Source of the DNA: Pleurocapsa sp. PCC 7319
GTDB taxonomy: Bacteria; Cyanobacteriota; Cyanobacteriia; Cyanobacteriales; Xenococcaceae
Assembly: GCF_000332195.1 (NCBI RefSeq)
Contig: NZ_KB235922.1
Coordinates: forward strand, 1,175,902-1,239,901
DNA: 64,000 nucleotides
Direction of reading: 5' to 3'
Every line of letters starts with the position of its first letter. Within the stretch, counting starts at the first letter, position 1. Positions 34,899 through 51,994 of the stretch are shown here, in pieces. A program made the position numbers and the translations under genes. The notes beneath the pieces are model-generated. The model was not told the origin of the DNA, did not search any database, and saw nothing but the letters and a program-made list of their open reading frames with translations.

Positions 34899-36131
34899 AT
34901 GTTTAGAGTTCAGAAAGCTTTTTTAAAATCTGTTGGGTTTTCATCTCTAGTGTTGCAATCTAATGGGCGACATCCCGATGACTTAAAAGATAATAACCGG
35001 GGAAGTTTGCTTCAACTCCTACTATTTATAGACAAACGTTCTTCTTCCGAAGAGCATATCCAGCGAATCCAAGCTTATTTACAGGGCTTGCAATCAGATT
35101 ATTCATTCAAGTTAGAAATAGTTGAAATTGACAAGCAACCTCATTTGGTAGAATATCTAAAATTAGTAGCTACTCCTGCTTTAGTTAAAGTGGCTCCAGG
35201 TCCAAGGCAAACTCTAGCTGGTAGTAATTTAATTAAACAATTGGAGAAGTGGTGGCCTCGTTGGCAAGCAGCTCTAGATAGTTCAGATATTAGTGTTGAT
35301 AGTCAAAGTTTGGGAGATGACTTATCTATTTCGATTTTAGATAAAGTTGGTTTCTACGCTGAAAACGTTAAACTTGCTGATGAAATATTTTCCTTAAAAA
35401 AGGAAAAAGAAAGATTGCTAGCACAGCTACGCTTTAAAGACCAAATTTTGGCTATGCTAGCTCACGATCTGCGTACCCCTCTAACAGCAGCCTCTATGGC
35501 AATGGAAACTATTGAGTTGTCAGAAAAGAATGAACACATAGAGGCAACTAAGCTGGCAAGTCTGAAAAAAAAGCTTTTTCAACAGGCAAAAAGCCAGTTT
35601 AGCATCATGAATCACATGATTGGTGAGCTGTTGCAAAACTCTCAAAGCGTGAGTACCAAGCTACGAGTCAAACCGTCTCCCATACGTTTAAAGCCTTTAT
35701 GTCAAGAAGTTGTCACTAAACTTGAGACTAGACTGAAGCAAAAATTAATGACTTATAAGGAAGACATTCCCCAAGATATTCCTTTGGTCTATGCTGACGA
35801 AGAGTTAATTCGTCAATTGATTAGTAATCTGCTGGATAATGCGATTAAATATACTCCAGAAAAAGGTCAAATTTCTCTGTCTATTTTGCATCGTACTAAC
35901 CAAAAAGTTCAAATTAGTATTTGTGATACGGGACCGGGCATTCCCCCTGGAAAAAGAGAGGTTATTTTTGAGGACAATTTTCGGCTCCAGCGCGATCGCG
36001 ATCAGGAAGGCTACGGATTAGGGTTAGCTATGTGTCACCAGATTGTCTGCGCCCATTATGGTCAAATTTGGGTAGATAGTTCTCCTTCAGAAGGTAGTTG
36101 TTTTCAATTTACTTTACTGGTTTATAAATAG
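34899..36131 (+). CDS. sasA: Adaptive-response sensory kinase SasA
   Basis: SasA is the clock-output histidine kinase that senses KaiC through an N-terminal KaiB-like domain and phosphorylates RpaA. The 410 residues contain a KaiB-like domain at about 37-125 (LLQLLLFIDKRSS; LEIVEIDKQPHLVEYLKLVATPALVKVAPGP, cited as LEIVEIDKQP and ATPALVKVAPGP), a coiled linker at 155-180, the H box MLAHDLRTPLTAASMAM (His189), and ATPase boxes LLDNAIKYTP, CDTGPGIP and GYGLGLAM. The first 36 residues (QKAFLKSVGF...) are longer than in some homologues, so a later start is possible. kaiABC and rpaA are not in the window. Confidence 0.93.
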   Translation: MFRVQKAFLKSVGFSSLVLQSNGRHPDDLKDNNRGSLLQLLLFIDKRSSSEEHIQRIQAYLQGLQSDYSFKLEIVEIDKQPHLVEYLKLVATPALVKVAPGPRQTLAGSNLIKQLEKWWPRWQAALDSSDISVDSQSLGDDLSISILDKVGFYAENVKLADEIFSLKKEKERLLAQLRFKDQILAMLAHDLRTPLTAASMAMETIELSEKNEHIEATKLASLKKKLFQQAKSQFSIMNHMIGELLQNSQSVSTKLRVKPSPIRLKPLCQEVVTKLETRLKQKLMTYKEDIPQDIPLVYADEELIRQLISNLLDNAIKYTPEKGQISLSILHRTNQKVQISICDTGPGIPPGKREVIFEDNFRLQRDRDQEGYGLGLAMCHQIVCAHYGQIWVDSSPSEGSCFQFTLLVYK

Positions 36132-36413: not shown

Positions 36414-37670
36414 TCAAACAGGAATAGTAAAACTAATAGTTGTTCCTTCTACTGTATTAGATTGAATCGACAAAGTACCTTGATGTGCATTGACAATTTG
36501 CTTAACAATTGCTAAACCTAAACCAGTTCCTCCTGATTTACTAGAAACAAAAGGTTCACTCAGTTTTGGTAAAATTTCTTCTGGAATCGGAGTTCCCTGA
36601 TTATGAATACTAAAGCAAATAGATTCAGGATTTTGGGTTTTAGTTAAAGTACAGGTAACTACTTCCCCCAGAGCGATCGCTTCGCAAGCATTTTGAACTA
36701 AATTAATTACGACTTGCTTAAGCTTATTTTTATCAGCTCTAATTATTAGCTTTTCTGGCAGAGGAATCAATCGAATCTCTTTTCCTGAAGCCATTGGCAA
36801 TTGTCGTAAATCAAACAGTAATTCAGCCAAGAACGGAGCTACTTCTATTGGTTCTAATTCAAGTATTTGAGGTTTAGCATAGAAGAGAATCTCTTTTAAT
36901 AGCTCCAAAAGGCGATCTCCTTCTTCTGTTGCTAAAGACAATCTCATACGATCTCGTTTTTCAAGTTGGAGTCGCTTTAGGGAATTTAAACCCATCATGA
37001 TCGTAGTTAAGGGATTGCGAATCTCATGCACAATCATGGAAGCAAATTGACCAATAGCCGCCAATTTTTCTTTTTTAATCAATTTCGCTTGAGTGGCTCT
37101 TAACTGCTCGGTACGGAGAGCCACTTCTGTTTCCAAAGCCTGATTAAAATCTTGTTGTTGCTGATAGAGATTATAATTGTCAATCGCGATCGCTGCTCTT
37201 TCGGCAAATAACTGGACAGTTCTCAATTCTTCTTCGTCAAAAGAACGCGGCTGAACACAAAAAGAACATATTGTCCCAAATGTCTTACCCCCTGGTGTTT
37301 GTAAAGGTACCCCTAAATAGGAACGATATCCTTCGGGAGGTTTTCCGTATTTTGTTTGAGTCTGGGTGTCTTTGACCTGTAAAGTTTTCCCTGTTCTAAC
37401 AACAGTATGAGTTAAAGTACCGTGCAAAGAATAGATCTGCTCTCCTGCTCCCAAATCTAAACTGCTGGCGATTATTTTTTCTTTTTCAGCCCAACAAAAA
37501 GTAACTACCGACCAATCTAGATTCAGCAATTGGCTGACTCCGCAGGCGATATCTTTCAAATAGCTATCGATTGTCGAAGAACGATAGCTCAAAGCCGATA
37601 ACAGTTCTAGAATTCTTTGAGCTTGCTGCCATTTAAACTGACCTTGATGGAAAGGAAGTGGCTGAACCAT
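36414..37670 (-). CDS. GAF domain sensor histidine kinase
   Basis: The 418-residue cytosolic kinase has a GAF domain at about 30-168 (YRSYLGVPLQTPGGKTFGTICSF as YLGVPLQTPGGKTFGTICSF), a coiled-coil linker at 170-200, HisKA with His215 in SMIVHEIRNPLTT, and a complete HATPase domain (NLVQNACEAI, SGGTGLGLAIV). The GAF domain lacks the Cys-His pair of a phytochrome chromophore site, so it is not an obvious bilin photoreceptor; ligand unknown. There is no adjacent response regulator. It is convergent with sasA. Confidence 0.88.
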   Translation of the reverse strand: MVQPLPFHQGQFKWQQAQRILELLSALSYRSSTIDSYLKDIACGVSQLLNLDWSVVTFCWAEKEKIIASSLDLGAGEQIYSLHGTLTHTVVRTGKTLQVKDTQTQTKYGKPPEGYRSYLGVPLQTPGGKTFGTICSFCVQPRSFDEEELRTVQLFAERAAIAIDNYNLYQQQQDFNQALETEVALRTEQLRATQAKLIKKEKLAAIGQFASMIVHEIRNPLTTIMMGLNSLKRLQLEKRDRMRLSLATEEGDRLLELLKEILFYAKPQILELEPIEVAPFLAELLFDLRQLPMASGKEIRLIPLPEKLIIRADKNKLKQVVINLVQNACEAIALGEVVTCTLTKTQNPESICFSIHNQGTPIPEEILPKLSEPFVSSKSGGTGLGLAIVKQIVNAHQGTLSIQSNTVEGTTISFTIPV

Positions 37671-50154: not shown

Positions 50155-51321
50155 ATGATTCGCGTATTGGTTGTAGATGACCTAAAGCTAATTTGTGAGG
50201 GTTTGAAAGCAATGTTTTTATCTGTCGAAGATATCAGCATTGTTGGATTTGCTCACAATGGCCAAGATGCCATTGAGCAAATTATTCAAGAAAAACCAGA
50301 TGTCGTCTTGATAGATGTACTGATGCCGGTTATGGGTGGCATTGAGGCTACCAAGGAGATAACCAAACTGTTTCCTGAAGTAAAGGTTATTGTTCTAAGT
50401 ACCTTTGAGGATGACCCCGTAATTATGGATGCGATCGCGGCAGGGGCAAAAGGTTATCTGCTCAAAAATATGATTGCTCAAGATTTAGCTTCAGCAATTC
50501 GGGCAGTCAATCGAGGCTCTTCTCAACTAGCACCCGGGGTTCTCGATAGCCTGGCAAAAACTGCTTTTAACAATTCAGGTTCCACCAACACCGTAGCAGC
50601 TCCCGAAAAAGTTGGTACTATTGATTCTAGTCAAAAAATTAAAGTCAAACCACAAACTAGTCAAGTAAAATCGTCAAAAACTAAACTGGCTAAAAAAGCT
50701 AAAGTCAAGCCAGAAAAACCATTATTTCGATACGGTGATTGGGCGGCATTAGTTATCGGAATAGTTCTATTGGCTAAAACAGATGGTATGGGTCATCATC
50801 TCGGGCACGCAGGGGTGTTCTTTTTGATGTTGGCATTGATTGCTCGTCCGATTCGTTTCTTATGGGATCTACCTCTAAAATATCGTAGAACTATCGGTAT
50901 ACTTGCTTTTGCGACTGCCTTAGGTCATGCTATTTATGCTACTATTAATGTCTTGCATTCAAATTGGGCAACAATCTTCTTAATGTCACCCAAATTCCAA
51001 TGGGGAATGTGGGCTGGTATTTTGTCCTTGGCGGCGATGACTCCTGCTGCCATAACTAGTTTTAATCATTTTAAAAAGAAATTAGGGAAAAACTGGCGCA
51101 AAATTCATTTACTGACTGTTCCTAGCCTGGCTTTAGCAATAATACATACGATCTTAGTAGGACCTCACTACTTTGGGCAGATTCAGATAGAAATTATTCA
51201 TCACTTCCGTACTTATGTGATGTTACTTGTGGGAATATTAGTGTTACTGATGCGCAGACGAATATTTTGGTCAATATTAGGATTAAGTGGTTTGGGAAAG
51301 GGTAAAAAGATCAAGACTTAA
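50155..51321 (+). CDS. Response-regulator receiver domain fused to MsrQ-like heme membrane domain
   Basis: The 388-residue protein has an N-terminal receiver domain (residues 1-120) with all key residues: Asp8/Asp9, phospho-acceptor Asp54 (VLIDVLMP), Ser82 and Lys104, and a NarL-type C-terminal end (AVNRGSSQLAPGVLDSL). The expected LuxR helix-turn-helix is absent. Instead a Lys-rich linker (about 140-190) leads to a membrane domain at about 195-378 resembling MsrQ/ferric-reductase-like proteins (LKYRRTIGILAF; LGKNWRKIHLLT), with candidate heme ligands His258, His318 and His331. No MsrP gene is adjacent. It may be a phospho-regulated membrane redox protein. The ATG at 50155 is the receiver's natural start. 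Confidence 0.85.
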   Translation: MIRVLVVDDLKLICEGLKAMFLSVEDISIVGFAHNGQDAIEQIIQEKPDVVLIDVLMPVMGGIEATKEITKLFPEVKVIVLSTFEDDPVIMDAIAAGAKGYLLKNMIAQDLASAIRAVNRGSSQLAPGVLDSLAKTAFNNSGSTNTVAAPEKVGTIDSSQKIKVKPQTSQVKSSKTKLAKKAKVKPEKPLFRYGDWAALVIGIVLLAKTDGMGHHLGHAGVFFLMLALIARPIRFLWDLPLKYRRTIGILAFATALGHAIYATINVLHSNWATIFLMSPKFQWGMWAGILSLAAMTPAAITSFNHFKKKLGKNWRKIHLLTVPSLALAIIHTILVGPHYFGQIQIEIIHHFRTYVMLLVGILVLLMRRRIFWSILGLSGLGKGKKIKT

Positions 51322-51379
51322 AACAATTAAAATAGCTTGCTCATTACCAAGCCCTTTGGGCTGAAGTAACAAGTAACAA

Positions 51380-51477
51380 GTAATGAGTAATGAGTAATGA
51401 GTAATGAGTAATGAGTAATGAGTAATGAGTAATGAGTAATGAGTAATGAGTAATGAGTAATGAGTAATGAGTAATGA
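51380..51477. repeat. Heptanucleotide tandem repeat, 14 GTAATGA units
   Basis: Fourteen perfect GTAATGA copies, preceded by two AAGTAAC-like units, lie after the receiver-membrane fusion gene. It is the longest such array in the window. The rest of the 51322-51994 gap holds a weak hairpin (CCTCAC/GTGAGG, 51524-51547) and no gene. Confidence 0.96.
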
Positions 51478-51994
51478 GTAATGCCCGAAGTTTGGTCGAA
51501 ACACATACCGGCAAGCCCTTTGTCCTCACGGACATCTCACGGTGAGGAAGAAGCTTTCGCACACGTGTCTTCATCAATTAGGACAAAGCTAAAAAAATAT
51601 AATTCAATTTTTGAATACATGCGGCGAAATATGCGCCTTGGTCTTGCGTGATTCTGGAAGTATTACTCCTTACTCACTACTTCCTACTTATTACTCTTGA
51701 AGCCTGATGAGAATGAGCTTTGTAGATCAAACATCACTTAATTTATCTCGTGTATTAAGCAATTTTTTTAAAAACTAAATAGTAGATAATACAATTATTA
51801 AAGATACGTTTTTCATTCCTTTATATTTCAACAATCTGCTTCCTCCGCCTTTTTGTCTGGCTACTAAGGTTGATAGAAGATCAATTTTATATTTTTTATT
51901 TCTATCAATCCGCGAAAAAACGAATTTGTGTTCTAAAATCTTAAATTAAAATAGACAAATATAAATTTTTATTAAGCGAGGGTTTAAATAAATT

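Follow-up and report, generated by a model that had tools for sequence, protein, structure and literature searches.

Two-component systems act mostly through DNA-binding, enzymatic or protein-binding outputs, and single-domain receivers that work by binding other proteins are well known. In VraR and DesR, phosphorylation changes the dimerisation or docking of the receiver. Ferric-reductase domains are met in larger membrane proteins such as MamZ, which is made up of a magnetosome MFS transporter and a ferric-reductase domain. In E. coli K-12, the regulator pair hprRS is encoded one gene away from msrPQ and acts through transcription.

For the bacterial members of the ferric reductase superfamily, six modular extensions have been predicted, all of them for electron transport or exchange, and the words receiver and two-component are absent from the main text of that study (PMC3591440). 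The main text of a census of receiver proteins contains neither 'ferric' nor 'transmembrane' (PMC4558063). Among the matches listed by a search of the open-licence literature, no description of a receiver and a ferric-reductase domain in one protein was present.

Domain make-up of the fusion protein

The stretch of DNA analysed here (the window) comprises 64,000 nucleotides from Pleurocapsa sp. PCC 7319 and contains a gene that joins a receiver to a heme-type membrane domain (Table 1). The initial annotation had described a complete NarL-type receiver that continues, in one frame, into a membrane domain where the DNA-binding helix-turn-helix (HTH) would normally be, and this description is correct. 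The residues D8, D9, D54, S82 and K104 are at their proper places, and the Response_reg match reaches 85.8 bits against a Pfam cut-off of 30.2. In the same 388-aa reading frame, Ferric_reduct is matched at aa 225-328 (E 4.3e-9, 36.9 bits against a cut-off of 28), and no DNA-binding or HTH family is found by Pfam at E<=1. The only further family at that threshold is B12-binding, which stays under its own cut-off. No FAD/NAD(P)H domain is matched by Pfam after the membrane domain, and the protein stops 57 aa past H331. Lacking such a domain and carrying Arg at the position of the first heme His, it does not belong to the long form of the NOX/FRE proteins.

Table 1. Position of the fusion gene and its parts in the window
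Feature	Position	Strand	Basis or remark
Receiver-heme-domain fusion gene, 388 aa	50155..51321	+	ATG start, uninterrupted ORF; orthologues
Response_reg receiver, NarL type, aa 4-116	50164..50502	+	Pfam E 2.9e-24
Asp54 codon, predicted phosphorylation site	50314..50316	+	Residue conservation
Lys-rich linker, aa 126-187, in the usual place of the HTH	50530..50715	+	Fast-evolving; 12 K/R, 4 D/E
Six-helix heme-type membrane domain, aa 188-381	50716..51297	+	Pfam, MsrQ model, charges
H218 codon, extra invariant His, predicted outer end of TM2	50806..50808	+	Conservation
R244/R245 codons, Arg replacing the first heme His (YedZ/STEAP signature)	50884..50889	+	Signature from PMC3591440
H258 codon, equivalent of E. 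coli MsrQ H91	50926..50928	+	Alignment and spacing
H318 codon, equivalent of MsrQ H151	51106..51108	+	Alignment and spacing
H331 codon, equivalent of MsrQ H164 by ungapped spacing	51145..51147	+	MAFFT pairs H164 with H338
H338 codon, extra invariant His, predicted outer end of TM5	51166..51168	+	Conservation

Solved relatives of the receiver include VraR, DesR, DevR, NarL and CheY. For the membrane domain, a profile search of PDB sequences gave no matches at E<=1, and structure predictions from three-row alignments were of low confidence in both cases (pLDDT 41 and 52). Hydropathy and charges fit six helices with both termini inside. Lys and Arg number 12, 5, 6 and 7 in the linker, loops 2-3 and 4-5 and the C-terminus, as opposed to 1, 1 and 1 in the other loops. 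With the linker on this positive side, the receiver should be cytosolic.

The fusion is present in eight copies, whose proteins share 40-93% pairwise identity (BLASTP). All eight keep D8, D9, D54, S82 and K104, and R244, R245, H218, H258, H318, H331 and H338 are kept in all nine proteins when one stand-alone relative of the heme domain is included. In five pairwise comparisons by the Nei-Gojobori method, the receiver gave dN/dS values of 0.09-0.19, the heme domain 0.11-0.36 and the linker 0.34-0.52, ratios that are rough in three of the five pairs because dS exceeds 1 there. The receiver had the lowest value of the three segments in four of the five comparisons. Both domains thus look to be under purifying selection, with a linker that appears to drift. 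The complete receiver site in every copy, taken together with the low dN/dS of the receiver, indicates that phosphorylation probably matters.

Relationship to MsrQ and to DsbD_2-Ferric_reduct proteins

The membrane domain had been likened to MsrQ, with H258, H318 and H331 in the pattern of its heme ligands. This pattern is confirmed, since the spacing equals that of E. coli MsrQ (R77/R78, H91, H151, H164): R-x13-H, followed by a step of 60 and a step of 13 residues. Six helices and an Arg instead of the first heme His are likewise shared with MsrQ/YedZ, which is the membrane-bound heme subunit of the methionine sulfoxide reductase MsrPQ. A MAFFT alignment of eight proteins brings MsrQ H164 into the column of H338 by way of a gap; we prefer the ungapped register, in which H164 would correspond to H331. 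Replacement of the first heme His by Arg is the signature of YedZ and STEAP within the ferric reductase superfamily, and three His of STEAP1 are identical to those of the window protein (PMC3591440).

The likeness extends to the superfamily (PF01794) and the spacing, but not to membership of the MsrQ family itself. The NCBIfam model for MsrQ (NF003831) matches at E 2.1e-10, so similarity is detectable by profile search, yet the 40.5 bits are well below the cut-off of 130. We therefore rejected the identification of the membrane domain as MsrQ and regard the two as homologous. The domain is 23% identical to E. coli MsrQ and, unlike it, has a receiver in front. Two further histidines, H218 and H338, distinguish the window protein from five MsrQ-like proteins tested, which have the R-x13-H..H-x12-H pattern and lack both. 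No msrP-type gene lies near the fusion (C7:1226056); both Oxidored_molyb genes of the genome (C7:43703 and C7:2679826) are more than 1 Mb away. The MamZ model also matches the window protein (E 1.3e-8), yet with 33.8 against a cut-off of 650.

The closest relatives outside the clade of the fused domains are the C-terminal halves of proteins of about 400 aa with DsbD_2-Ferric_reduct make-up, at 36-50% identity. A search with the membrane part found matches in 54 of 100 genomes, the source genome included, and in those of the longer out-of-genus matches that were classified, a DsbD_2 (CcdA-like) membrane domain precedes Ferric_reduct. Pfam saw this make-up in three proteins, among them a copy from the source genome itself (G000:C7:1498509, L033:3395-4600). 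By phmmer, 123 loci were classified, several of which repeat one gene; 96 have a DsbD_2 half, 17 a receiver and 10 neither. Like the window protein, all 73 distinct DsbD_2 proteins have the R-x13-H..H-x12-H pattern, and most also have the equivalent of H338 seven residues on (66 of 73) and an H218-like His identified by pattern (67 of 73). Being common to the DsbD_2 proteins and absent from the MsrQ-like ones, the extra histidines place the membrane domain with the DsbD_2-type group. The N-terminal halves differ: in the DsbD_2 fusions this half is not a receiver but CcdA-like, with the motifs GHCxxxC and PCG each in 72 of 73, and in the eight fused proteins Pfam scans and phmmer found no DsbD_2.

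In a phylogeny of 43 proteins, the fused domains group with the stand-alone ones in a single clade (92/86). The DsbD_2 group (76/85) and the MsrQ-like proteins lie outside it, and the tree gives no firm branch order for the fused clade and the DsbD_2 group. The DsbD_2-Ferric_reduct fusion is itself widespread in cyanobacteria, and the literature matches listed held no description of it; its features suggest a transmembrane electron carrier linked to thiols or metals. We considered and rejected an origin of the receiver fusion beside the DsbD_2-Ferric_reduct gene of the same genome. The closest ordinary regulator (60%) is located 9 kb from that gene, a proximity judged to be chance because the stretches of nine other genomes gave one full-length receiver at 46% (G012) and weaker or partial ones at 25-41% (G008).

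Distribution, neighbourhood and receiver lineage

The thirteen genomes of the genus that were searched, here numbered from G000 (the source of the window) to G012, contain eight fused genes in seven genomes: one each in G000, G002, G003, G005, G006 and G008 (Waterburya agarophytonicola KI4), and two in G009 (Chondrocystis sp. NIES-4102). Four others (G001, which is 81% complete, G004, G011 and G012) have the DsbD_2 form and no domain of the fused clade, with an additional MsrQ-like match in G004, and G007 has no match to the membrane part. With the heme domain of the fused clade missing from five of the thirteen genomes, its function must be dispensable. Relatives of the heme domain also occur without a receiver, namely a stand-alone domain of 214 aa in G008 (L006), an additional short gene in G002 and a partial stand-alone domain at a contig end in G010, with no receiver upstream. 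The domain is therefore able to serve as a module alone. Beside the short gene of G002 lies a reading frame with many short Glu/Pro/Met-rich repeats (L131:8265-9842).

The initial annotation suggested a search for the domain pair across cyanobacteria; searches for the heme domain of the fused clade turned up several genomes and, as far as searched, a single genus. Domains scoring like the fused clade (316-352 bits) were found outside the genus neither in the family (27 genomes) nor among the best candidates, at most eight per genome, of the order sample (388) and the phylum sample (386); the three samples overlap, and the N-terminal halves that were read, those of some longer out-of-genus matches with lower scores, were of the DsbD_2 kind. 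The best match of any other kind scored 206 bits and was inside the genus. Among 72,556 plasmid records, one covers at least 80% of the fusion, the NIES-4102 plasmid AP018283.1. There the fusion is one CDS (BAZ47152.1) in a record deposited as complete, which calls it only 'ferric reductase domain-containing protein', so that the receiver is hidden in the name. No relatives of the fusion were found in viral contigs. The concern that the fusion could be a frameshift or assembly artefact of a single genome is removed by this occurrence.

The surroundings of the copies vary. A phosphoribosyltransferase, DUF3038 and DUF4335 precede the fusion in G000, G005 and G008; the copies of G002, G003 and G006 share another location, and each NIES-4102 copy has its own. 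On its 3' side in the window, the fusion is followed by a gene for a starch synthase, and a perfect tandem array of 15 copies of the 7-base unit AGTAATG occupies 51379-51483, just 3' of the gene. No histidine kinase adjoins the fusion in the window; the nearest ones, a KaiB-HisKA protein (34899-36131) and a GAF kinase (36414-37670), are more than 12 kb off, and no kinase was seen beside the other copies in the part of their neighbours that was scanned. In G010, a HisKA kinase accompanied by a receiver gene is located some 4 kb away from the stand-alone piece. Among the eight copies we saw no conserved operon partner. An aldo/keto reductase and a glycosyltransferase flank the fusion in three of the eight, and a protein of 232-234 aa with a weak Peptidase_M41 match follows directly 3' in two (L130:7560-8264 and L124:8635-9333, 77% identical between G008 and NIES-4102). 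In one, the NIES-4102 plasmid copy, its end shares 14 bases with the beginning of an NMT1-like solute-binding gene annotated as aliphatic sulfonate binding protein.

Ordinary NarL-type regulators have an HTH where the fused protein has its membrane domain; the closest of them to the window receiver, L135 of the same genome, is 60% identical. A phylogeny of 42 receivers, drawn from nine genus genomes, separates the fused receivers from 33 ordinary ones and puts them on a 100/100 branch together with one further protein, L185 of G008 (contig C80, L185:193-1878, minus strand). This protein of 561 aa consists of a receiver and an MFS transporter (Response_reg E 6.7e-22, MFS_1 E 1.3e-46). Its branch is long; bootstrapping recovers the eight fused receivers as a group of their own in 35% of trees, and the topology that unites them is not rejected (p-AU 0.495). 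The L185 receiver is 37-47% identical to the heme-fused ones. Against a profile of the eight it scores 125.7 bits, with several ordinary regulators higher, up to 161, and against a profile of the 33 ordinary receivers 119.7 bits, a difference of +6. The same difference is -29 to -64 for the ordinary receivers (leave-one-out), and the eight fused receivers score 153.7 to 214.4 bits leave-one-out, at least 26 bits above their ordinary-profile score. Falling between the two sets, L185 therefore belongs within the fused clade or next to it, and its tie is weaker than that among the eight. With a profile that contains L185, the nine take the top places in the family (189-228 bits) and the ordinary regulators score 170 or less, a ranking that favours the profile's own members.

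The receiver-MFS fusion is represented by a single gene, from a draft genome. Its MFS part shares 73-79% identity with a transporter of about 412 aa that stands alone in ten other genus genomes and in G008 itself. In the tree, the G008 stand-alone heme domain branches from within the fused ones (97/73), but its highest identity (70%) is to the G005 copy, which makes its exact place unsure. One may guess from this one draft genome that the heme domain lost its receiver, perhaps to the transporter.

Possible function and comparison with known systems

We propose, with moderate confidence, that the fusion protein is a response regulator with a membrane electron-transfer domain as its output. A histidine kinase would phosphorylate Asp54 of the cytosolic receiver, and phosphorylation would alter the alpha4-beta5-alpha5 face and dimerisation by analogy with other NarL-type receivers. 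Through the flexible Lys-rich linker, the receiver could then uncover or cluster the cytosolic electron-entry face on the side of R244/R245/H318, thereby opening or closing it. Electrons would be delivered by a cytosolic flavin reductase or a reduced carrier, would cross through a putative heme b held by H258/H331 and would be taken up beyond the membrane, where the acceptor might be a metal ion or a thiol close to H218/H338. The membrane concerned would be the plasma or the thylakoid membrane.

In this scheme, control would run from the receiver to the heme domain. Two findings speak against the scheme as a whole: no histidine kinase adjoins the gene in the window, and five of the thirteen genomes do without the heme domain of this clade. 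The related receiver joined to an MFS transporter in G008 makes a receiver that controls membrane effectors a better fit than a heme sensor. Against this, the MFS-fused receiver is less identical to the heme-fused ones than the window receiver is to its closest ordinary regulator. It is a tentative extension, on which we lean towards doubt, that one receiver lineage left DNA binding and was joined to membrane machines (in eight genes a heme electron carrier, in one an MFS transporter) whose electron export or transport a histidine kinase switches by phosphorylation, bypassing transcription. With the receiver-MFS gene in one genome, 'membrane electron carrier' may be just one form of a broader design.

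Other readings of the fusion were weighed against this electron-transfer output. The heme domain could instead be a redox (or O2/NO) sensor that sets the gain or loss of phosphate by the receiver, the protein acting as a membrane phosphate sink or buffer with a kinase shared with NarL-type regulators. The missing DNA-binding output and the flexible linker would suit this, and a shared kinase is conceivable because ordinary NarL regulators of up to 60% identity occur in the same genomes; we nevertheless think such a sensor unlikely, as the moderately related receiver of G008 is joined to a transporter and not to a redox domain, and the kin of the heme domain come joined to DsbD_2, which belongs to carriers of electrons between thiols. 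MFS as an alternative partner also suits a membrane domain that does nothing but anchor a CheY-like single-domain receiver, its heme function kept or degenerate, and receivers acting by protein binding provide a precedent. A mere anchor would need neither the His/Arg set kept in nine of nine proteins nor purifying selection, which makes tethering rather improbable.

The fusion might also be a near-neutral joining of genes that became fixed, in which the heme domain functions like its stand-alone relatives and the attached receiver adds only stability or dimerisation, with no phospho-control. The patchy occurrence in seven of the thirteen genomes and the stand-alone heme domains of G008 and G010 agree with this, but the full phospho-acceptor site of all eight copies and a receiver dN/dS that is lowest in four of five comparisons leave it a long shot. 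The chance that a frameshift, chimaera or assembly artefact produced the gene is vanishingly small, since it would have to account for eight divergent copies in seven genomes, one of them on the complete plasmid record AP018283.1.

A receiver with a transmembrane heme domain, or with a transporter in one relative, would, if this reading is true, amount to direct phospho-control of membrane redox reactions or transport, and the idea is testable because a single chain holds both input and output and named strains (Chondrocystis sp. NIES-4102 and Waterburya agarophytonicola KI4) carry copies. In this one small cyanobacterial group, the fusion suggests a signal that may switch a membrane machine directly, and not a gene. 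MamZ and STEAP likewise use the ferric-reductase domain as a module within larger membrane proteins, though to our knowledge without a receiver. Taken singly, response regulators and ferric-reductase domains are familiar; judged by the literature matches listed, it is their union in one chain that appears to be new.
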